From contig NZ_RAPQ01000008.1 in assembly GCF_003610555.1 (NCBI RefSeq), positions 2,348,490-2,412,489 on the forward strand: 64,000 nt of DNA, given 5' to 3'. The translations under genes were made by a program, and so were the position numbers. The DNA comes from Marinifilum flexuosum (GTDB lineage Bacteria; Bacteroidota; Bacteroidia; Bacteroidales; Marinifilaceae). The notes below the pieces were generated by a model, which was not told the origin of the DNA, did no database searches, and saw only the letters and a list, made by a program, of their open reading frames with translations. Of this stretch, positions 5,462 through 53,170 are shown in pieces. Within the stretch, counting starts at the first letter, position 1, and the number at the start of each line of letters is the position of its first letter.

Positions 5462-7006
5462 TTAATTTAGATCTGACCTACCCAAAGCAATTTGTTGCAT
5501 GCTATTGTTGATCCTTTTTAAAGCATCTTGAATGCTCTCTTCGGGCTTTATAACGTTGCTTTTTCCCCAAAAAGTAGGATCATAGATTGTTCGGTGATTG
5601 GAGAAAATGGTTGTTGGTGTTATGGATTCTCTGTATTTAAATCGAACAACATCCTCTGATTTTATATTTGTGGTTGCCATCTCGAATGAAGTGGAGAAAT
5701 AACTAGAGAACAATTTCTTTTTATTTTTCACTTTGAATTTTAGACTCCCCAAAGCGTGATTCAAATAATATTTTCCGTTGATGTCGCGATAGCTAACAGC
5801 ATAATTTACCATGGTTGGTTTTGCCTTGGTTTTTGAACTGCCTTTTACAATGAATCGGTTTTTTAACTCATTCAGTCTATACTTTTCGTAACCAAATTCG
5901 GCTCGAATGATGGCCAGGTTATTAGTTTCAATAAACAACCTTCCTTCCAATAAAGGTTCACTCAGTTTGGGTCTTGGTTCAAACTCAATAATGTATACCG
6001 AACGATTGTTGTATGTACTGATATCCACTAAACGATAATTGTACAAATGAGTATAATCTTCGCTAAGAAATTCTGGTAGATTCTTTACAATATCTAATTG
6101 TAAACATCCTTGAATTCCACCCTTTAGTCGAAACGAAATGGTATCTAATCTGGTAACATCGTAAATTTTACGGCTCTTAAAAACTTTTACTCTTTCCAGC
6201 GCATTTTGGTTAGAATAGGAACTTTTGTAAATATCCAATACCGATTCCAGATAAATCATGTATTTGTTATTTTTCATCACAGATTCTCGGTAAAAAGATG
6301 TTAAGTTCGTTGATTTTTGAGGATAGTTTTTGTGTATGTTATGCACGGCTGCACGAACCAAAGCCAAAGGATCATTATTACGAATAATTACTTCTTGAAG
6401 GGAAATAAAATCTTCTTTGAGTTCCACTTCAATTTGATTTTTCTTCAAATTAGAAACAACAATTTCATTATTCTGATATCCAACATATGAAAATACCAAG
6501 GTATCATTTAAGTTCTCTGAAGATATGCTTAGTGAGAATTCACCATCTTGGTTGCTTATGGTACCCACGTGCTTTCCTCTTATTCCAATACTGGCATATG
6601 GTAATGCTTTCTTTGAATTCAAATCTTTAACAATACCAGTTAATTTTCGGTAAGAAATGTATGGTATAATTTCCTTAGGAGGTGGAATATTTAATGCTTC
6701 TTTAACCGGAACAATAACAATGTGTTTTTTGGTAACATGAAAATTAAGGTCTTTGTCAGGGATTAATTTTCTTAGTACACTTGAAAGTTTTTCATTTTTG
6801 ATATTAACGTTCAGAGGCTTGCGATCTTTAAAAAGGTTGGCGTTGTAGGTGAAATAGCATTGTGCTTTTTGTTCAATGCTATCTAGTGCATTTTCAATGG
6901 TTGTTTTAGATAAATTTAGGTTTATCTTTTTATCCAATAAATGAATTTGAGCTTTGGTATTAAAGCATAGAAATAGCAGAATGAAAAGTATTGTATTTTT
7001 TTTCAT
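5462..7006 (-). CDS. Exported STN + carboxypeptidase-regulatory domain protein, no TonB barrel
   Basis: About 514 residues from the chosen start, which places MKKNTILFILLFLCFNTKAQ as a signal peptide; an in-frame ATG at 7039 is the alternative. An STN (secretin/TonB short N-terminal) domain is followed by a CarboxypepD_reg-like beta-sandwich (LTGIVKDLNSKKALPYASI...NQDGEFSLSIS) and a ~300-residue C-terminal region with FYRESVMKNNKY, no TonB plug or barrel. In SusC-type receptors STN contacts FecR; here the gene directly follows fecR-like and sigma genes. The C-terminal region is paralogous to that of the 8828-10132 protein. Confidence 0.85.
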   Translation of the reverse strand: MKKNTILFILLFLCFNTKAQIHLLDKKINLNLSKTTIENALDSIEQKAQCYFTYNANLFKDRKPLNVNIKNEKLSSVLRKLIPDKDLNFHVTKKHIVIVPVKEALNIPPPKEIIPYISYRKLTGIVKDLNSKKALPYASIGIRGKHVGTISNQDGEFSLSISSENLNDTLVFSYVGYQNNEIVVSNLKKNQIEVELKEDFISLQEVIIRNNDPLALVRAAVHNIHKNYPQKSTNLTSFYRESVMKNNKYMIYLESVLDIYKSSYSNQNALERVKVFKSRKIYDVTRLDTISFRLKGGIQGCLQLDIVKNLPEFLSEDYTHLYNYRLVDISTYNNRSVYIIEFEPRPKLSEPLLEGRLFIETNNLAIIRAEFGYEKYRLNELKNRFIVKGSSKTKAKPTMVNYAVSYRDINGKYYLNHALGSLKFKVKNKKKLFSSYFSTSFEMATTNIKSEDVVRFKYRESITPTTIFSNHRTIYDPTFWGKSNVIKPEESIQDALKRINNSMQQIALGRSDLN

Positions 7007-7045
7007 TGAGTACTTTTGATATGTTTTAATACTGTCCATAAGTAA

Positions 7046-8041
7046 TTAAATTCCTTTTTTCAATATGATGGTTTGACCTTTTTTCTCATATGTCAAATTA
7101 AATGACATACAGATATTATTTAAAACATGACTAAGCGATTCCTGATTGAAAGTGGTATTAATTTTCTCTTTTGCAATTTCATCGCTTTCAAATTGAATTT
7201 GAACGTGATAAGTTCTTTCAATTACTTTGGCAACTTCTTTTAGTTCCATTCTTCTAAAAACCATCTTTTGCGTTTTCCACGATAAGTAATTGTCATCGTT
7301 CATTAAGCTTTTGCTTAGTAAGCTTTCTTTCAAAATCGCAAAATCACCTTTTTCAAGTATAACCGATTCTTTATTGTTGATCTCGGAAAATTTAACTTTA
7401 CCAGATTTAACCAGAACTTCAACTTTGTCATCCTTGGCAATTACATTAAAAGATGTTCCCAATACTTTAATTTCGGCATCTTTTGCTGTAATAATAAAGG
7501 CTTTGTTTGGGTTTTTAGCAATATTAAAAAAAGCTTCACCTTCCAGGCTTACATTTCTGGTGTCATCATTAAAATTTCTTGGATAAACCAGTTTGGCTTC
7601 TCCGTTTAGAGTAATGGTTGAACCATCTGCAAGCACAATGGATTTATTGCTTTCATGGGCTTTCGAAATAAAAGTTTGATAAGGCGATAGGTATTCATTG
7701 TAAACTTTGTTAGAAATCAGACCTAAGCCAATTACTACAATAATCATTGCTGCAAACTGAAGAACTCTCTTGGCATTAAGAATTATCTTTTTGCCACTCT
7801 TCTTATTCGTAATTTGGTCGTTTACTTTGTTCCAGGCAATATCAGCATTGTATTGCTCTCTGATGTGCATTACATCTTCAACCAAACCCAAATCCTTTTC
7901 TGATGCTGCAATAATTTGAGCATATTCGGGGTTCGAATCAATCACCTTTTTAAAGGCTGCCTTTTCTTCCTCACTCATTTCTCCGCTTAAATACTTCGAA
8001 ATGATTTCCCATTCAATGTTATGTGATGTTTCGTTCTTCAT
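7046..8041 (-). CDS. FecR-family anti-sigma factor
   Basis: 331 residues: a cytosolic N-terminal segment with the ISKYLSGEMSEEEKAAF helix that binds sigma, one transmembrane helix near residues 92-112 (FAAMIIVVIGLGLI), a periplasmic FecR domain (SIVLADGSTITLNGEAKLVYP...LEGEAFFNIAKNP...VLGTSFNVIA) and the C-terminal STN-interacting subdomain (FRRMELKEVAKVIERTY). It is encoded 6 nt after the sigma factor stop, the standard FecI-FecR arrangement. Confidence 0.93.
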   Translation of the reverse strand: MKNETSHNIEWEIISKYLSGEMSEEEKAAFKKVIDSNPEYAQIIAASEKDLGLVEDVMHIREQYNADIAWNKVNDQITNKKSGKKIILNAKRVLQFAAMIIVVIGLGLISNKVYNEYLSPYQTFISKAHESNKSIVLADGSTITLNGEAKLVYPRNFNDDTRNVSLEGEAFFNIAKNPNKAFIITAKDAEIKVLGTSFNVIAKDDKVEVLVKSGKVKFSEINNKESVILEKGDFAILKESLLSKSLMNDDNYLSWKTQKMVFRRMELKEVAKVIERTYHVQIQFESDEIAKEKINTTFNQESLSHVLNNICMSFNLTYEKKGQTIILKKGI

Positions 8042-19993: not shown

Positions 19994-22042
19994 TTATTGA
20001 TGAGATATCGATTCCTCTACATAGATTTTTTCGGCATTTGGCACTGTAAACCTAAATGTTGTTCCGTGCCCTTCTTCACTTTCTACCCAAATTTTACCAT
20101 GATTTCTCTCGATAAAATCCTTACATAGTATCAAGCCCAAGCCATTTCCTTTTTCTCCGCGCGTTCCACTACTTGTAGTATCCAACTCAAAAATGTGGGA
20201 AATTGCTTCATCGGATATTCCAACACCACTGTCTTCTATATAAATCTCGGTGTGATCTTCTTTCATTTCTGCCCCAAGTACAATTAAGCCACCTTCGGGC
20301 GTAAATTTTAAGGCATTGTTTAAAAGGTTACGTACTACGGTTTCCAACATTGGTCGGTCGGCATATACAAAAAGATTTTGCGATAGTGATAATTCCAACA
20401 AAATGTTTTTTTGTTGAGCACCAGTTTTATAGATTTCCAAAATGCCAGACAAAAGTTTCTTGACAGGGATAACTACAGGTGTAAAAGGCAATTTGCCAGA
20501 TTGATTCAATGACCAAGACAAAAGGTTATCGGTGAGGTTAAGAACTCTTGTTACGCATTCGTTCAAATCTTGGCTGGTTTCATCTAATTCGTGATATCTT
20601 CCTTGCCTCAAAAGAATTTGTATTAAATGGGATATGCCCGATACCGAAGCCAAAGGGGAACGCAAATCATGAGAGATGATTTGGAACAGTTTATTTTTGG
20701 TTTGGTTCGACACTTTTAATTCTTTGTTCCTGCAATCAAGAAGTTCTTTCGACCACTCAATTCGTGATTTTTGTAGGCTAAGTAATCTTGTTAGTTTTTT
20801 GTTACTGTAATACGAATAGACTATAAATCCGGCATAAGCTGCAATTAGTATCAATATAACAACTAGGCCATTACGTTGCATAGCCTTATTATTGTTCTCT
20901 TTCTTTAGCAAAGCAATTTGCGCTTCTTTCTTTTCTGCTTCGTATTTGGCCTGAATCTCGGTTACCTGTTTTAAACTCTCTTTGTTAATCAAACTATCTT
21001 TAAGCTGATCGTATATTTCCCAATAACGCAGGGCGCTATCCGCCTGGTGTTGATGGGTTAGGATATGAAATATTCTGGATGCACTATTTTTTTGATAATC
21101 AATATGTCCAATTTCTTTTCCTAATTCATAAGCTCTTTTGCTATAGTTTAATGCATCATCTAAATTTCCCATTACATAATGGGCTTGAGATAGTCCATTT
21201 AAAGAGGTGATGATTAAATTCTTGTTCCCTATTTTTTCCTTTAATTGTAAACTCTGTTTTTGGTAATCGATAGCCATGGCGTATTGCTTCATTTCCAGAA
21301 AACATGCACCAATGTTGTGATAGGTTTGCGCCAGACGATATTTGTTGGGTTTTGCTTTAAGTACATCTAAGTTTTTCTTGTGGTAGTTTAAGGCTTCCTG
21401 AAATTTATTTTGGATGGAATAGATATTGGCGATATTTGTATTTGAATGGTAAAGAGTAGAAGTTATATTATTTCTTGAACTTACGTCAATAGATTTTATA
21501 TAATAATTTAATGCATTTTTATAATCTTTTAAGTTTTTATATACAAGGCCCAAATTGTTATAAACGCTTGCGAGCATCTTCATTTGTTTCTCATTATTAA
21601 AATAATGAATACATTTAAAATAATCTATTAAGGCCAAATCATATTTTTCAAGATTATTGTAAATATTTCCTCTGTTAAACAGAGCTTTATTAATACCAGC
21701 AGAATCTTTACTTGTTTTATAATGATCTAGTGCCTCTGTGTAATATTTTAAAACTTTCTTATTGTTTCCTCTTCTTTTATGAACTAATCCAATTCTTATT
21801 AAGGCATCTCCGGCACCAGAATGGTTATTAACTTGATTCGCAAGTTCAAGACATTTTTCTGAATAAAACAATGCTTCATTAAGGTGTTTTCTGTAGTTTT
21901 TTCCGGTCCAATCGTTTAAGAATTTGATCTGTTCATGAACATCTTGTATGGAATCCAATTGTCTATCTACAAACGAATTGTTTTGACCAAATGATTGTAT
22001 GGTGAATGCAAGTATGAATGTAAAAAGAAGTAGTTTTTGCAT
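19994..22042 (-). CDS. TPR-containing sensor histidine kinase
   Basis: 682 residues with a signal peptide (KLLLFTFILAFTIQSFG), about seven to eight TPR repeats over residues ~35-330 (for example ALIRIGLVHKRRGNNKKVLKYYTEAL), a coiled segment ~360-390, one transmembrane helix near 395-415 (GLVVILILIAAYAGFIVYSYY), HisKA with HDLRSPL and HATPase (NLLNNALKFTP, NGLGLIL). The TPR part is predicted periplasmic and may bind a protein or peptide. It lies 131 nt downstream of the GG-leader peptide cluster on the same strand, with a terminator hairpin in between. No partner response regulator is adjacent. Confidence 0.92.
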   Translation of the reverse strand: MQKLLLFTFILAFTIQSFGQNNSFVDRQLDSIQDVHEQIKFLNDWTGKNYRKHLNEALFYSEKCLELANQVNNHSGAGDALIRIGLVHKRRGNNKKVLKYYTEALDHYKTSKDSAGINKALFNRGNIYNNLEKYDLALIDYFKCIHYFNNEKQMKMLASVYNNLGLVYKNLKDYKNALNYYIKSIDVSSRNNITSTLYHSNTNIANIYSIQNKFQEALNYHKKNLDVLKAKPNKYRLAQTYHNIGACFLEMKQYAMAIDYQKQSLQLKEKIGNKNLIITSLNGLSQAHYVMGNLDDALNYSKRAYELGKEIGHIDYQKNSASRIFHILTHQHQADSALRYWEIYDQLKDSLINKESLKQVTEIQAKYEAEKKEAQIALLKKENNNKAMQRNGLVVILILIAAYAGFIVYSYYSNKKLTRLLSLQKSRIEWSKELLDCRNKELKVSNQTKNKLFQIISHDLRSPLASVSGISHLIQILLRQGRYHELDETSQDLNECVTRVLNLTDNLLSWSLNQSGKLPFTPVVIPVKKLLSGILEIYKTGAQQKNILLELSLSQNLFVYADRPMLETVVRNLLNNALKFTPEGGLIVLGAEMKEDHTEIYIEDSGVGISDEAISHIFELDTTSSGTRGEKGNGLGLILCKDFIERNHGKIWVESEEGHGTTFRFTVPNAEKIYVEESISHQ

Positions 22043-22118
22043 AGTATTAAAATGATTAGCAAAAACTAAGATATGAAAAACTGTAATTATATCAGCAAAA
22101 AGAAATGAAAATAAAAAT

Positions 22119-22143
22119 GGACATTAGTTTATTCCTAATGTCC
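22119..22143 (-). terminator. Terminator after GG-leader peptide gene A
   Basis: GGACATTAG (22119-22127) pairs with CTAATGTCC (22135-22143); a T-rich run follows on the minus strand. Separates the peptide genes from the TPR kinase. Confidence 0.75.
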
Positions 22144-22173
22144 ATAAATTTTTACAAGTAAGATTTCTAATTG

Positions 22174-22293
22174 TTAAGGAACTTCTCCTATAGCATCATC
22201 ATAATCCACATCCGTTCTGTTGTCTTCTTCAGGATTACCACCGAATACTTTGTTTAGTTCTTCATTGGTCAATTGTTCTTCGAAAAAATTCAT
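22174..22293 (-). CDS. Double-glycine-leader acidic peptide A (39 aa)
   Basis: Translated by hand: leader MNFFEEQLTNEELNKVFGG, then core NPEEDNRTDVDYDDAIGEVP. The leader has the LxxEEL...GG pattern recognised by C39 peptidase-containing ABC exporters in bacteriocin and natural-product precursor peptides. The 20-residue core carries eight acidic residues and one arginine and no cysteine. First of three tandem paralogues counting from the TPR kinase; nucleotide sequence, upstream region and start context are shared. No exporter gene is in the window, so processing is inference. Confidence 0.8.
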   Translation of the reverse strand: MNFFEEQLTNEELNKVFGGNPEEDNRTDVDYDDAIGEVP

Positions 22294-22309
22294 AAAATTT
22301 TAATTTTAA

Positions 22310-22380
22310 TTAAATAAAGCCTAAATATATATATATATATAGCAGTGCTTTACAAAATTTAACCAACTTTTGGAGGAGTA
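22310..22380 (-). promoter_or_regulatory. Predicted promoter of peptide gene A with (AT)8 tract
   Basis: On the minus strand a TTTTG box is followed by TAAAGCACTGC, a 17-nt alternating AT tract (22325-22341), then TTAGGCTTTA, before the ATG. This resembles the Bacteroidota -33 TTG / -7 TAnnTTTG layout, but the spacing here is unusually long because of the tract. Confidence 0.45.
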
Positions 22381-22390
22381 TAAATAAAAA

Positions 22391-22414
22391 CGGACATTGA
22401 TTAGTCAATGTCCG
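22391..22414 (-). terminator. Terminator after GG-leader peptide gene B
   Basis: Perfect 10-bp stem CGGACATTGA (22391-22400) / TCAATGTCCG (22405-22414) with a 4-nt loop and a T-rich run on the minus strand. Confidence 0.8.
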
Positions 22415-22438
22415 TTCTATTTTTAATGAAAAAATTAC

Positions 22439-22558
22439 TTAAAGAATTTCTTCTTCAGCATCATCATAATCCACATCCGTTCTGTTGTCTTCTTCAGGAT
22501 TACCGCCGAATACTTTGTTTAGTTCTTCATTGGTCAACTGTTCTTCGAAAAAATTCAT
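22439..22558 (-). CDS. Double-glycine-leader acidic peptide B (39 aa)
   Basis: Leader identical to peptide A (MNFFEEQLTNEELNKVFGG). The core is NPEEDNRTDVDYDDAEEEIL: the first fifteen residues equal those of A, the last five differ. Ten acidic residues, one basic, no cysteine. The unit from this gene's promoter to its terminator is nearly identical to its neighbours, showing recent tandem duplication of about 263 bp. Confidence 0.8.
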   Translation of the reverse strand: MNFFEEQLTNEELNKVFGGNPEEDNRTDVDYDDAEEEIL

Positions 22559-22569
22559 AAAATTTTAAT

Positions 22570-22640
22570 TTTAATTAAACAAAGCCTAAATATATATATA
22601 GCAGTGCTTTACAAAATTTAACCAACTTTTGGAGGAGTAT
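22570..22640 (-). promoter_or_regulatory. Predicted promoter of peptide gene B with (AT)5 tract
   Basis: Same sequence as the peptide A promoter except that the alternating AT tract is 11 nt (22590-22600), so the distance from the TTTTG box to TTAGGCTTTG is 6 bp shorter. Confidence 0.45.
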
Positions 22641-22649
22641 AAATAAAAA

Positions 22650-22673
22650 CGGACATTGATTAGTCAATGTCCG
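22650..22673 (-). terminator. Terminator after GG-leader peptide gene C
   Basis: The same perfect stem as after gene B: CGGACATTGA (22650-22659) / TCAATGTCCG (22664-22673), followed on the minus strand by a T-rich run. Confidence 0.8.
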
Positions 22674-22697
22674 TTCTATTTTTAATGAAAAAATTAC

Positions 22698-22820
22698 TTA
22701 AAGAATTTCTTCTTCAGCATCATCATAGTCCAAATTTGTACTATTGTCTTCTTCAGGATCTAATCCGCCTAATACTTTGTTTAGTTCTTCATTGGTCAAT
22801 TGTTCTTCGTAAAAATTCAT
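22698..22820 (-). CDS. Double-glycine-leader acidic peptide C (40 aa)
   Basis: Leader MNFYEEQLTNEELNKVLGG and core LDPEEDNSTNLDYDDAEEEIL. It is the most diverged of the three: Tyr for Phe at position 4, Leu for Phe before GG, an extra core residue and no basic residue in the core. The C-terminal AEEEIL equals that of B. The substitutions keep the leader pattern and the acidic character, which argues for a real, selected gene. Confidence 0.8.
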   Translation of the reverse strand: MNFYEEQLTNEELNKVLGGLDPEEDNSTNLDYDDAEEEIL

Positions 22821-22834
22821 AAAATTTCAATTTT

Positions 22835-22895
22835 AATTAAGCAAAGCCTATATATATATAGCAGTGTTTTACAAAATTGAATAAGCTTGTATGTA
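22835..22895 (-). promoter_or_regulatory. Predicted promoter of peptide gene C with (AT)5 tract, shortest spacer
   Basis: TTTTG box, TAAAACACTGC, 11-nt AT tract (22850-22860), then AGGCTTTG with two bases fewer than copy B. The box-to-box distance is the most normal of the three. Upstream sequence beyond the box is no longer shared with copies A and B. Confidence 0.45.
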
Positions 22896-23000
22896 TAAAT
22901 GTTATAACAATAATCGAATAAAACTGTATTATAAATCTGCTTAATTCACTGTCAATTTAATACTAAAAAAAAATTAGATTGTATACAGATTAAAAAAAAA

Positions 23001-23029
23001 GGGCTGTTTCAACTAATTTGAAACAACCC
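23001..23029 (-). terminator. Terminator of the 114-residue tail-sharing protein gene
   Basis: GGG-TGTTTCAA (23001-23012) pairs with TTGAAACA-CCC (23018-23029), with one mismatch, and a run of nine Ts follows on the minus strand. Confidence 0.8.
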
Positions 23030-23059
23030 TAAAAGTTCTTATGAAGAAAACATCAAATG

Positions 23060-23404
23060 TTATGGGACATCAACTTGAGCATCATCATAATCCACATCGG
23101 TTCTGTTGTCTTCTTCAGGATTGGCCATCAATGCGGTATCTACCATTACCATGCTAACGGTTTTAACTTCATCGGTTGGGCCTTGTTCCAATGGCACTGA
23201 GAATTCAGCGATTTCGGTTCCAACACCACCATTAGAAGTAATGGTTGCCGTAACTGCCCAAAGCTTTTGGCCATCTTTTTCAATTTCTCCTTGGCTAAGC
23301 GTATTTAAAGCATAGCCTTTTGGTACCGATACGACCGAATTTAGTGTGTAAACTCCATTTGATGCAGACTTGATCAAATTCACATAGGGTTTTAGTAATT
23401 TCAT
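23060..23404 (-). CDS. 114-residue protein ending in the acidic tail of the GG-leader peptides
   Basis: Residues 1-91 form an unrecognised, probably beta-rich domain (GVYTLNSVVSVPKGYALN, KLWAVTATITSNGG, TEIAEFSVPLEQG) without signal peptide or GG leader. The last residues, NPEEDNRTDVDYDDAQVDVP, repeat the core of peptides A and B for fifteen positions, with DNA identity broken by a single base in that stretch. So the tail was copied between an ordinary protein and the small peptides. It stands first in the co-directional series leading to the TPR kinase. Function unknown. Confidence 0.72.
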   Translation of the reverse strand: MKLLKPYVNLIKSASNGVYTLNSVVSVPKGYALNTLSQGEIEKDGQKLWAVTATITSNGGVGTEIAEFSVPLEQGPTDEVKTVSMVMVDTALMANPEEDNRTDVDYDDAQVDVP

Positions 23405-49500: not shown

Positions 49501-50853
49501 ATGATCAGACATTTTACTCGCTTTTTTCAGCGAGAACAACAATATTCAGCAGTAGGAAAAGATCTATTTAAATTGGCCATTCCAATTATTGGATCTTATT
49601 TATTGCATACAGCTTATAATCTTACCGATATGATATGGGTAGGATCATTGGGAAGTAATGCTGTAGCGGCGGTAGGATCGGCAGGTTTCTTTCTGCACCT
49701 GGGCTGGGCAATGGCTTCCATAGTTACGGTTGGAGCCAATATTAAGATTTCACATTCGGTAGGAGCAAAGGATGAGGAGGGAGCAGGTAGGTTTGCTACC
49801 TCGGCACTTTGGGGAATTGGAATTATTGCCGCCATATTTTCAATCATTTTCTGGGCATTTCCCGATAAATTTATCAATTTCTTTCAGATGCAGGATCCAG
49901 AGGTGAACGAAATGGCCACCTCTTATTTGGTGATTAGTACATTTGGCGTGATATTAAGTTATGCCAATCTCTTATTTATTAGCATGTTTAATGCTCATTC
50001 GGAAACCAAAATTTCTTTTAAAGCCAGTTTAATTGGAACTGCGGCCAATATCGTACTCGATCCCATATTGATTTTTGCTTTGTCGCTTGGTGTTGATGGA
50101 GCAGCATATGCAACCATTATAGGTCGCAGCTTAAGCTTGATTTATTTCTTTGTGATATACAAGAAAACTGCAAATATTAATTTCAGAGGACTATTGCCTA
50201 ACCTGGACAAGTTTAAAACCATATTTGCTGTTGGAACACCAGCTGCCATTCAGAGAATATCATTTTCCATTATCTATATCTTTTTGGCAAGAATTATTGC
50301 AGAATGGGGACCTAATGCCATTGCCGTGCAAAAGATTGGAGTGCAGATAGAATCCATTACCTTTATGATTGTAGGAGGCTTTATGCAGGCAGTTACCATT
50401 ATGGTAGGACAGAGCTATGGTGCTAAAAATCTGACCAAAGTTCCCAATATTTACAGGGCTGGTTGGAGAATGTCATTTGCTGTGGGATCGGTAACTACAA
50501 TTATTTTTCTATTGTTGCCTGAAACCTTATTCTCCATATTTGTTCCTGAACAGGAAAGTATATTAATGGGTAAGGAATATTTAATGATTTTAGCAGTTTC
50601 TCAGCTGTTTATGTGCCTGGAGATGATTAATGCTGGGGTGTTTAATGGTTTGGGAAAAACAAATATATCGGCAGCCGTAAGCGTTGTTTTTACAACTTTA
50701 CGTTTGCCGGGAGCATACTTCCTGGGTTTCTATACATTCTTAAGCTTAAATGGTGTATGGTGGAGTATTACAGGAAGTAGTATATTGAAGGGAATTGTAA
50801 TGTATTTGCTGCTTAGGGCATATATGAAAAAAGATACTTTTGGAAAAATTTAA
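49501..50853 (+). CDS. MATE family efflux transporter
   Basis: 450 residues in two six-helix halves, with the MATE blocks AIPIIGSYLLHTAYNLTDMIWVGSLG at the start and VGQSYGAKNLTKVPNIYRAGWRMS in the second half. Sodium- or proton-coupled drug/metabolite export from the cytoplasmic membrane is expected. Its stop is 4 nt before the gshF start, so the two form an operon. Confidence 0.92.
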   Translation: MIRHFTRFFQREQQYSAVGKDLFKLAIPIIGSYLLHTAYNLTDMIWVGSLGSNAVAAVGSAGFFLHLGWAMASIVTVGANIKISHSVGAKDEEGAGRFATSALWGIGIIAAIFSIIFWAFPDKFINFFQMQDPEVNEMATSYLVISTFGVILSYANLLFISMFNAHSETKISFKASLIGTAANIVLDPILIFALSLGVDGAAYATIIGRSLSLIYFFVIYKKTANINFRGLLPNLDKFKTIFAVGTPAAIQRISFSIIYIFLARIIAEWGPNAIAVQKIGVQIESITFMIVGGFMQAVTIMVGQSYGAKNLTKVPNIYRAGWRMSFAVGSVTTIIFLLLPETLFSIFVPEQESILMGKEYLMILAVSQLFMCLEMINAGVFNGLGKTNISAAVSVVFTTLRLPGAYFLGFYTFLSLNGVWWSITGSSILKGIVMYLLLRAYMKKDTFGKI

Positions 50854-50857
50854 TGGT

Positions 50858-53170
50858 ATGAATCATTTAATCAATAATATTACAAAAACATTGACTTGCC
50901 CAGGTATTAAAGCAAGTATTACGGATGGTTTATTTGGAATCGAAAAAGAGAACGTTCGTGTTGATGAGATGGGGAAAATGGCCAATACGCCACATCCCGG
51001 GATTTTAGGCGATAAGTTTCGTCATCCATTTATTACTACTGATTTTTCTGAGAGTCAGGTGGAAATGATTACCCCACCATTGAAGAGTATTGCAGAGGTA
51101 CATGGTTTCCTGGAAACACTAAACGATGTGATTTCGGAGAATTTAGGAGAGGAATTGTTATGGCCGCAAAGTTTGCCTCCATTATTGCCTGATGAGGAAG
51201 AAATTCCGATTGCAAAGTTTGGAGAAGAAGGAGTGCATAAGGAAAAATACAGAGAAGAACTGGCTATTAGGTATGGAAAAGAAAGACAGATGTTGACTGG
51301 AATTCATTTCAATTTTTCTTTATCAGATCGATTGGAACGAAAGCTTTGTAAAGCCATTAATTGGCAAGGAAATCAAACTAATTTTCGAGAGGTAGTGTAT
51401 TTGAAAATGGTTCGCAACTTTATGCGTTACCGTTGGCTTTTGGTTTGGTTGTTTGGCGAAAGCCCGGAAGCTGACCCATCATTAAAGATGAAATCCTTGC
51501 GTACCGGCGAAAAAATGAGAATGGGCTGTAGAAAAGCGGTATCAATTCGTACCAGCTCAACGGGCTATAGAAATGCAGAGGAGTATTTTGTTGATTTCAA
51601 CAGTCTGCTGTTGTTTAAAGAATCGATGAAGAACCTTGTTGGTTCTGGTAAACTACTTTTAGATGAGGAATTGTACCTGCCAATCCGTTTGAAATTTGCG
51701 AACGATGGCAAGAGTATCTCGCATCTTGAAGTTCGAATTCTTGATTTGGATCCTTTCGAAAAGTCGGGTGTATCAAAAAACAGGTTGTACTTTATTCATC
51801 TGTTTATGCTGTATTGTTTGTTCAAAGAGGAAGAGAATACTTACAGCGAAGCAGAGCAAAAAATAGCTGCAAAAAATCACGATTGGGTGGCTTGCAGTGG
51901 TATGAATCCTGATCTTTTGTTGAAAGATTTCGATGGAAATATGCTGAAGATTGAGGAAATGCTTCAAAATATCCTGTTTGAGGTCAAAGATTTTGCAAAA
52001 GCATCAGGAATTATTGATAATGAATGTTATCGACTGGCTTTGGAGGAAACCGAAGGTTTAATCCTTGATCCAGACACCCGTTCTTCGCTAAAGGTAAAGC
52101 AGCAAATAGAAGAGGAAGGCTTTATTAATTTCCATTTAAAGCTTGCAAAAAAATACAAAACCGAAAGTGAGATGAGTGGCTTCCGTTTTCACGGATTTGA
52201 AGACTTGGAATTGTCTTCTCAGCTGTTAATGAAAGCTGCATTGCGCCGTGGTGTGGAATTTAAAATTTTAGATCGAAGCGAGAATTTTATCAGCCTGCAC
52301 AGAGGGGATAAAACCGAATATGTAATGCAGGCCACACGAACATCATTAGACAATTATTCAAGTGTTCTGATGATGGAAAACAAGTTGGTTACAAAGAAGA
52401 TTCTGGAAAAATCGGATATTCGTGTTCCTGGTGGTTTGGATTATCGTGACGTGAGAGAAGCACAATCGGATTTTGATTTGTTTGAAGGAAAAGGAATTGT
52501 GATCAAACCCAAATCAACCAATTTTGGCTTGGGAATTACAATCTTGAAAGAAAATAATAGCGAAGAGGTATACAAACGCGCTGTTGAGATCGCTTTCGAG
52601 CATGACAATAGTATTTTGATAGAGGAATTCGTTTCCGGAAAGGAATATCGATTCTTTGTAATTAACGAACAAGTTACAGGTATTCTTCATCGTGTACCAG
52701 CCAATGTTAGAGGCGATGGGAGTAGTTCAATAAAACAATTGGTTGAGGAAAAGAATAAGGATTCATTGCGTGGTAGAGGATACCGAACACCTTTGGAAAA
52801 AATCAGACTGGAGGAAGCAGAAGCAATGTTTTTACAGGATCAGAGCTTGGATTTTGATAGCGTTCCTGCAAAAGATGAAATGGTATACCTGAGAGAGAAT
52901 TCCAATATCAGCACAGGAGGCGATAGCATCGATTTTACAGATGATATTCATCTTTCCTATAAGGAAATTGCGGCAAAATCAGCAAAGGCTTTGGGTGTTA
53001 GAATTACAGGTTTGGATATGATGATTGAAGACATCACAAAACCAGCAACAAAAGACAACTATGCCATTATTGAAATGAATTTCAATCCGGCAATTCATAT
53101 TCATTGTTATCCATACCAAGGGGAGAATCGCAAGTTGAACGAAAAAATATTGGATGCATTGGGTTTTTAA
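50858..53170 (+). CDS. gshF: Bifunctional glutamate-cysteine ligase / glutathione synthetase
   Basis: 770 residues from the ATG at 50858; the longer frame uses TTG at 50840 and overlaps the MATE gene. The N-terminal ~480 residues are a GshA-type ligase (FGIEKENVRVD, TDFSESQVEMITPP, LTGIHFNFS, CRKAVSIRTSSTGY). The C-terminal part is an ATP-grasp domain (GIVIKPKSTNFGLGI, LIEEFVSGKEYRFFVI, ITGLDMMIED, IEMNFNPAIHIH). It makes glutathione from Glu, Cys and Gly in one protein. Confidence 0.95.
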   Translation: MNHLINNITKTLTCPGIKASITDGLFGIEKENVRVDEMGKMANTPHPGILGDKFRHPFITTDFSESQVEMITPPLKSIAEVHGFLETLNDVISENLGEELLWPQSLPPLLPDEEEIPIAKFGEEGVHKEKYREELAIRYGKERQMLTGIHFNFSLSDRLERKLCKAINWQGNQTNFREVVYLKMVRNFMRYRWLLVWLFGESPEADPSLKMKSLRTGEKMRMGCRKAVSIRTSSTGYRNAEEYFVDFNSLLLFKESMKNLVGSGKLLLDEELYLPIRLKFANDGKSISHLEVRILDLDPFEKSGVSKNRLYFIHLFMLYCLFKEEENTYSEAEQKIAAKNHDWVACSGMNPDLLLKDFDGNMLKIEEMLQNILFEVKDFAKASGIIDNECYRLALEETEGLILDPDTRSSLKVKQQIEEEGFINFHLKLAKKYKTESEMSGFRFHGFEDLELSSQLLMKAALRRGVEFKILDRSENFISLHRGDKTEYVMQATRTSLDNYSSVLMMENKLVTKKILEKSDIRVPGGLDYRDVREAQSDFDLFEGKGIVIKPKSTNFGLGITILKENNSEEVYKRAVEIAFEHDNSILIEEFVSGKEYRFFVINEQVTGILHRVPANVRGDGSSSIKQLVEEKNKDSLRGRGYRTPLEKIRLEEAEAMFLQDQSLDFDSVPAKDEMVYLRENSNISTGGDSIDFTDDIHLSYKEIAAKSAKALGVRITGLDMMIEDITKPATKDNYAIIEMNFNPAIHIHCYPYQGENRKLNEKILDALGF

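Follow-up and report, generated by a model that had tools for sequence, protein, structure and literature searches.

The genome of Marinifilum flexuosum carries, within the 64,000-nucleotide stretch analysed here (the window), three tandem genes for small peptides with double-glycine (GG) leaders, and the acidic core of these peptides recurs as the C-terminal tail of a neighbouring 114-amino-acid protein (the long form), whose gene stands beside that of a tetratricopeptide-repeat (TPR) sensor histidine kinase. The long form is paired with a kinase of this type in every relative in which it was found, and this suggests that Bacteroidota have a peptide signalling system which has so far gone unrecognised. 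On balance, we lean towards an explanation in which the periplasmic TPR sensor would have the acidic tail as its ligand, with the GG genes supplying a C39-exported form of that tail.

The three peptide genes lie on the minus strand at 22174..22293 (A, 39 amino acids), 22439..22558 (B, 39 amino acids), and 22698..22820 (C, 40 amino acids, a diverged copy). They form direct repeats at 265- and 262-bp spacing, in accordance with a first-pass annotation of this DNA which had described three tandem GG-leader genes arising from a duplication of about 263 bp. The leader is MNFFEEQLTNEELNKVFGG in both A and B, and that of C differs from it by Y4 and L17, as had also been recorded there. The cores of 20 to 21 residues, which had been called acidic and cysteine-free, carry net charges of -7 (A), -9 (B), and -10 (C) and contain no Cys; they end in DDAIGEVP in A and in DDAEEEIL in both B and C. 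All three leaders have V-4, L-7, E-8, and L-12 ahead of the GG. Compared with the leader positions given in the excerpted text of PMC6363468, A, B, and C display the features of a C39/PCAT cleavage site, namely G-2 G-1 and hydrophobic residues at -4, -7, and -12, so that the earlier assignment to the C39 type holds. When the 64 kb were scanned for the GG-leader pattern, A, B, and C were the only frames to pass. The annotation had also proposed selection on the product: the comparison of A with C (dN 0.12, dS 0.28) agrees in direction and is compatible with purifying selection, although over 39 codons it is weak by itself. A, B, and C are real genes. Two antisense frames of 50 to 51 amino acids on the plus strand (22408-22560 and 22667-22822), which overlap GG genes B and C, are taken as by-products of the repeat.

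A conserved block, TTTTGTAAARCACTGC...TATATATWTAGG, stands ahead of each unit, at about 22586-22628 before B and at about 22849-22888 before C. In unit A, comparison of the repeats and alignment delimit a promoter-like block at 22321..22369 on the minus strand (TTTTGTAAAGCACTGC ... TATATTTAGG), which may be a Bacteroidota promoter; a sigma-70 scan detected promoter-like sites in no excess (11 versus 10.0 by chance). According to a hairpin scan, terminator-like hairpins follow, on the minus strand, the 3' ends of A (22117..22145), B (22387..22418), C (22646..22677), and the long form (23000..23030). These four places account for seven hits, as three of the hairpins were also scored on the opposite strand; shuffled sequences gave 0.6 +/- 0.9 hits.

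When the own genome was searched with peptide B, four places were recovered, the fourth being the C terminus of the long form (23060..23404, minus strand, 114 amino acids). This protein consists of a conserved N-terminal part (residues 1 to about 92), unrelated to the GG leader, and of the acidic tail NPEEDNRTDVDYDDAQVDVP. The segment NPEEDNRTDVDYDDA is common to the long-form tail and to copies A and B, with 44 of 45 nucleotides the same and the single difference silent. The earlier reading as peptide genes is therefore sound as regards genes and leaders but incomplete, as the core is also present on the long form beside a TPR kinase, both of which are encoded in the window. Peptides A, B, and C end differently from the own long form: core A is identical to the long-form tail of Marinifilum breve (20 of 20 residues, 59 of 60 nucleotides), and the core ends of B and C resemble the long-form tail end of strain D737. 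Similarly, in Labilibaculum manganireducens the GG core (locus L022, 10523-10663) is closer to the L. euxinus long-form tail (45 of 46 nucleotides) than to the tail of its own long form, which parallels copy A and its better fit to the M. breve tail than to its own.

The own long form has no match in Pfam or NCBIfam, the 26 family members examined give scattered weak ones, and a search for the family in Pfam, NCBIfam, and PHROGs returned nothing convincing. Judged by eye, it has no obvious signal peptide. Its AlphaFold model consists of beta strands and a disordered tail and is of low confidence (pLDDT 51); the best candidate for a relative of solved structure, a 984-amino-acid chain at an E value of 0.0067, was taken as a chance match.

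A scan of contigs identified 13 long-form loci, all belonging to Marinifilum, Labilibaculum, or Marinifilaceae, in the order pst-phoU-phoBR, aldo-keto reductase, long form, GG gene where there is one, TPR kinase, ABC-F, and deoB; three of them (L020, L025, and L026) are interrupted by contig ends. By profile search, long forms were found in 17 of 56 genomes of the own family. A second Bacteroidales family, f98, yielded 12 good frames in 25 genomes, with only a weak partial match in a 13th genome, and another class yielded eight good frames in 244 genomes, after two further hits with E values above 0.03 had been dropped. The own class, own genome not counted, contributed three long forms in 395 genomes, a fourth hit being dropped as it had no open frame. 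A narrower profile matched 6 of 393 genomes at the level of the order (the own genome, three of f98, and two taken as chance) and 4 of 395 at that of the phylum (the own genome, G520, and two taken as chance). The long-form family is patchy within Bacteroidota. Its tail features a nearly invariant Thr followed by acidic residues; in g114, the tails are Gly-rich (DPDGEGKTGSGNGE) and the architecture is unchanged.

The sensor histidine kinase of the window (19994..22042, minus strand, 682 amino acids) comprises TPR-like helix pairs, a long helix, and a HisKA-HATPase module, and its hypervariable block spans residues 61-200. An N-terminal signal peptide and a transmembrane stretch in the long helix were recognised by eye. 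In the fetched loci, all 41 distinct long-form frames, counted at E values up to 0.001 and lengths of 90 to 200 amino acids (L026 from a 122-amino-acid partial frame at a contig end), are followed on the same strand by a TPR-kinase-like frame. Forty of these pairs were found by a script that looked within 1 kb for similarity to the sensor region of five seed TPR kinases; the 41st long form, L148, overlaps its kinase frame beyond the cut-off of the script and was counted separately. Pfam confirmed TPR and kinase domains in six of the paired frames. The paired loci represent at least four lineages and differ in their flanking genes, and in many of them the long-form gene ends immediately ahead of the kinase gene or runs into it. 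At other TPR-kinase loci taken from the own genome (G000), G398, and G520, no long form was detected by profile. In the own genome and in G398 the kinase is of the HisKA type (below cut-off in G398) and has no adjacent regulator, while in G520, G1178, G1302, and G1271 the long form is followed by a HisKA_3-type TPR kinase and then by a LuxR-type response regulator. Since the kinase half changes type and the TPR half is constant, the conserved partner of the long form is the TPR sensor half. The constant linkage that marks a pheromone gene and its cognate kinase gene is thus seen for 41 of 41 long forms, and a GG gene is present at five of these loci.

In three genomes of the own class, G1178 among them (L170, L171, and L172), a Peptidase_C14 (caspase) gene was observed near the operon of long form, kinase, and regulator. 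In G1178 it lies about 7 kb off the operon, beside a second TPR kinase, and genes for an S8 subtilase and a PatG-domain protein are located just upstream of the operon. A protein of up to 139 amino acids (L170, 12829-13263), which looks like another small domain with a tail of its own, precedes the set of second TPR kinase, regulator, and caspase. PADLOC returned mainly generic TPR, caspase, and subtilase models.

To find GG versions of the tail in relatives, 524 small frames around the 41 long-form loci were compared with the local tail. Scores of 61 to 91 were reached by seven GG peptides, and the next frame scored 26; with shuffled tails, the best score was 27 to 47 in each of 20 rounds. 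Three of the seven are those of the window, and L. manganireducens (G044), G398, G851, and G852 have one each, in two families overall. All seven carry GG-type leaders (GA in G044, GD in G852) and are encoded on the kinase strand. When 96 related genomes were searched with peptide B, GG forms were recovered only in the own genome and in G044. The earlier reading depended on leader-bearing homologues in other genomes, and the L. manganireducens gene (L022) is one, resembling the window genes in leader, frame, and upstream block, the last established by alignment. As this block is shared, the G044 gene is probably the same ancestral gene as that of the window. Four loci of g114 have two TPR kinases in succession, and the gap between them (L069, about 6960-7440; L177, 5810-6290; L178, 5700-6190; L180, 6300-7080) holds small peptides with Pro/acid cores, of which one in G840 (L180) has a GG leader (MILEELELTIEELFLIRGG...) and another is without. 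To judge by these frames, the pattern of two vehicles, with and without a GG leader, is repeated there with another core and another kinase.

Among close relatives, variation is concentrated in the sensor and in the tail. In comparison with L015, L016, L017, and L018, respectively, the own sensor is 81, 76, 61, and 71% identical and the kinase domain 99, 96, 95, and 97%; as controls, the sensor of the neighbouring PhoR is 93, 91, 90, and 94% identical, and that of the second kinase of the window 90-97% (three relatives comparable). Across these four pairs, dN amounts to 0.12-0.29 for the sensor, 0.12-0.28 for the tail, and 0.01-0.03 for the N-terminal part of the long form. The tail has dN below dS in four of four close pairs, and neither sensor nor tail gave a direct sign of positive selection in these pairs, dN being below dS. 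In L015 the difference falls on residues of about 61-200, i.e., TPR2-4, where identity per 20-amino-acid window is 15-70%, and the flanks are 95-100% identical; in L017 and L018 the sensor also differs outside this block. The dS of L015 is 0.41 in the sensor versus 0.06 in the kinase domain, raised as it would be after replacement by recombination. In g114 (G398, G851, and G853), the sensor of the first kinase, HK1, is 63-83% identical versus 82-94% for its kinase domain, and the tandem second kinase, HK2, is without such a sensor excess in three comparable pairs; in these genomes the tail (89-94%) equals or exceeds the N-terminal part of the long form (77-88%) in conservation.

The end of the tail and the type of the TPR2-4 block co-vary, and the independent support that the sequences lend to this is modest. 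With kinase distance removed, distances between tail C-terminal ends correlate with TPR2-4 distances at r 0.66 over 13 sequences (0 of 5000 permutations) and with TPR5-8 distances at r 0.09 (p 0.28, 13 sequences); for the whole tail and TPR2-4, r is 0.37 (p 0.002). Without two near-duplicates (11 sequences), tail end and TPR2-4 give r 0.41 (p 0.023), with p becoming 0.034 when L022 is also left out and 0.12 when the own sequence is left out instead; the seven Marinifilum sequences alone give r 0.12 (p 0.31). With duplicates included, 18 sensors give r 0.77 (0 of 4000 permutations). In this set, TPR2-4 identity is 0.74-1.00 in the 15 pairs with identical ends and 0.42-0.62 in nine intermediate pairs, and it has a median of 0.41 and a maximum of 0.66 in the 129 pairs with clearly different ends. 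Four of six same-end sensors are 99-100% identical in TPR2-4 and, in five of their six pairs, 77-83% identical in TPR5-8; as TPR1 and the linker are conserved to a degree similar to that of TPR2-4, the contrast in these four is with TPR5-8 only, and L137 and L143, which carry that same end, do not show it. L021 and L023 have near-identical tail ends and TPR2-4 blocks that are 42% identical. Of 12 blocks compared, the closest to the own TPR2-4 block (62%) comes from L. manganireducens, the one further member of the family for which a GG gene was detected; the long tails of both end in AQ[VI]DV.

The AlphaFold model of the sensor kinase (pLDDT 87, the TPR region mostly above 90) features eight TPR-like helix pairs (residues of about 35-350) that run into one long helix. 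The top 24 rows of a Foldseek search are TPR domains of LGN/Pins/Gpsm2, from entries titled as complexes with partner proteins, and the pheromone receptors NprR and Rap appear at ranks 45 and 47-49. LGN reads acidic peptides. An Asn occupies position 6 of TPR3-6, and no enrichment of variable TPR sites on the concave face was found in the sensor model.

No exporter was seen in the window, as had been noted earlier, and the genome-wide search for C39 peptidase-ABC transporters which had been recommended returned a single match in the own genome, outside the window (G000:C1:63635, a 739-amino-acid frame). G044 has four such matches and G398 and G851 one each; the search found none in G852 (79% complete) and none in six of the eight long-form genomes of the other class. 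In view of these six genomes, the long form, and with it the ancestral tail, cannot depend on C39 export. Other GG-leader-like peptides of L. manganireducens, which contain Cys, are encoded near C39 exporters (L070, 14830-15114; L071, 12505-12693), and one of them lies beside a frame resembling a radical SAM enzyme.

The suggestion that the peptides are precursors of modified products gained no support in the own genome, where the only RimK/ATP-grasp match (26 bits versus a cut-off of 21) falls at about 52376-52705 of the window, in a frame of about 776-780 amino acids (50840-53170, plus strand) which is not beside the GG peptides. RimK-like frames of 780 and 771 amino acids match likewise in G001 and G044; G044 has six RimK matches in all, and the search in G398 found none. 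Assignment as a graspetide was rejected, since neither the own genome nor G398 has an evident ATP-grasp ligase with a precursor. A class II bacteriocin was likewise rejected, as all matches are below the curated cut-off and confined to residues 4-20, which correspond to the leader.

In the mechanism that we propose, two vehicles would carry the tail. The long form, a small domain with the tail at its C terminus and its gene upstream of the kinase gene in several Bacteroidota lineages, is the more widespread and probably the ancestral one; the GG mini-gene, in Marinifilaceae and one other Bacteroidales family, would be the second. The C39-ABC exporter would cut off the GG leader and free the 20-residue tail, repeats 2-4 of the TPR sensor would read it, the C-terminal six residues setting specificity, and the tail-bound kinase would signal to a response regulator. 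We infer export with removal of the leader, binding, phosphotransfer, and a role between cells, and our confidence in these steps differs: that the GG genes encode an exported form of the tail is deemed likely, that the TPR sensor has the tail as its ligand somewhat likely, and that the signal serves between cells is given slightly less than an even chance. Since the GG copies carry the tail ends of sibling species, signal interference is possible, and the ends of A, B, and C would be in keeping with interference or cross-talk, or simply with old alleles that a repeat array has retained. The more far-reaching idea of a Bacteroidota-wide pherotype system, in which the sensor reads the last six residues of the tail and the GG genes of the present strain export sibling-type decoy or cross-talk signals at its relatives, is in our opinion unlikely.

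Some of the observations would also suit a long form which is a non-secreted accessory subunit and controls the kinase inside the cell, with the tail docking and the GG peptides serving as soluble competitors or a side branch rather than as a cell-to-cell signal. The long form is without a visible signal peptide, many loci have its gene immediately before, or overlapping with, that of the kinase, and C39 is absent from six of eight other-class genomes. However, the constant partner is the sensor half, which is periplasmic according to the signal peptide seen by eye, while it is the kinase half that changes type, and GG leaders with V/I-4, L/M-7, and L-12 normally serve export; we therefore consider an intracellular subunit improbable. 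Strong acidity and the spaced Asp pattern (D-x-D-x-D-D) could instead denote a calcium- or metal-binding segment, whose exported copies would be metal scavengers or metal-dependent sensors. Yet the tail turns Gly-rich in g114 while the architecture stays, and its variable C-terminal ends co-vary with the sensor, more weakly without the near-duplicates, so that metal binding is given little credence.

Modification of the core, as in a graspetide or another RiPP with its enzyme encoded elsewhere in the genome, might be read from the nearly invariant Thr followed by acidic residues, from genes for a PatG-domain protein and an S8 peptidase that lie close to the long form in a single genome, G1178, and from the six RimK matches of G044. 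With a single match in the own genome, in the frame of about 780 amino acids, none in G398, and no modifying enzyme that recurs beside long forms in the neighbourhoods seen, this reading appears very doubtful. Hardly any weight is given to bacteriocins or microcins: the leaders are of the C39 type and their region weakly matches bacteriocin and ComC models, below cut-off, but the cores are acidic and free of Cys, the core is also carried by a protein without an export signal, and the kinase neighbour is conserved. The view of the first-pass annotation that such acidic cores are unlike bacteriocins and more probably a signal is judged right.

In Gram-positive bacteria, signalling by peptides is a familiar phenomenon. 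For the periplasmic TPR kinases of Bacteroidota, we are not aware of any peptide ligand that has been described, and a search of the open-licence full-text literature found neither such a ligand nor a system of this type. The reading of the tail as sensor ligand names a candidate ligand, receptor, and exporter and the residues that possibly set specificity, so that a synthetic 20-mer would allow a direct test of what the TPR kinases of Bacteroidota sense.

To our knowledge, the description of FimS includes no peptide gene. The best NCBIfam match of the own kinase is to the FimS-type TPR histidine kinases of Bacteroidota (NF053520; residues 134-669), with 279 bits, which is below the curated cut-off of 600. 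The Bacteroidales GG-leader RiPP clusters described in the excerpted text of PMC10352776 likewise combine GG precursors with PCAT exporters, and some include TPR or histidine kinase genes; in contrast to what that excerpt describes, no radical SAM or maturation gene was seen here beside the peptides, and the core is shared with a non-GG protein. With the RRNPP/RRNPPA family, of which NprR and Rap are among our structural matches, the present system has in common a TPR domain as the proposed peptide receptor. The receptors of that family are cytoplasmic and bind re-imported peptides, whereas here the TPR domain, preceded by a signal stretch, stands ahead of a transmembrane helix (both judged by eye) and a histidine kinase; the proposed ligand, for its part, is acidic and made with a GG leader. 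ComC/CSP-ComD is a Gram-positive GG-leader pheromone with its sensor kinase. There, too, a GG-leader mini-gene is found beside a sensor histidine kinase, and a variable ligand and a variable sensor are combined with a conserved kinase. The differences are that the sensor is a periplasmic TPR superhelix here and a polytopic membrane domain there, that the host is a Gram-negative member of the Bacteroidota, and that the putative ligand is also carried by a second, unrelated, and more widespread vehicle.
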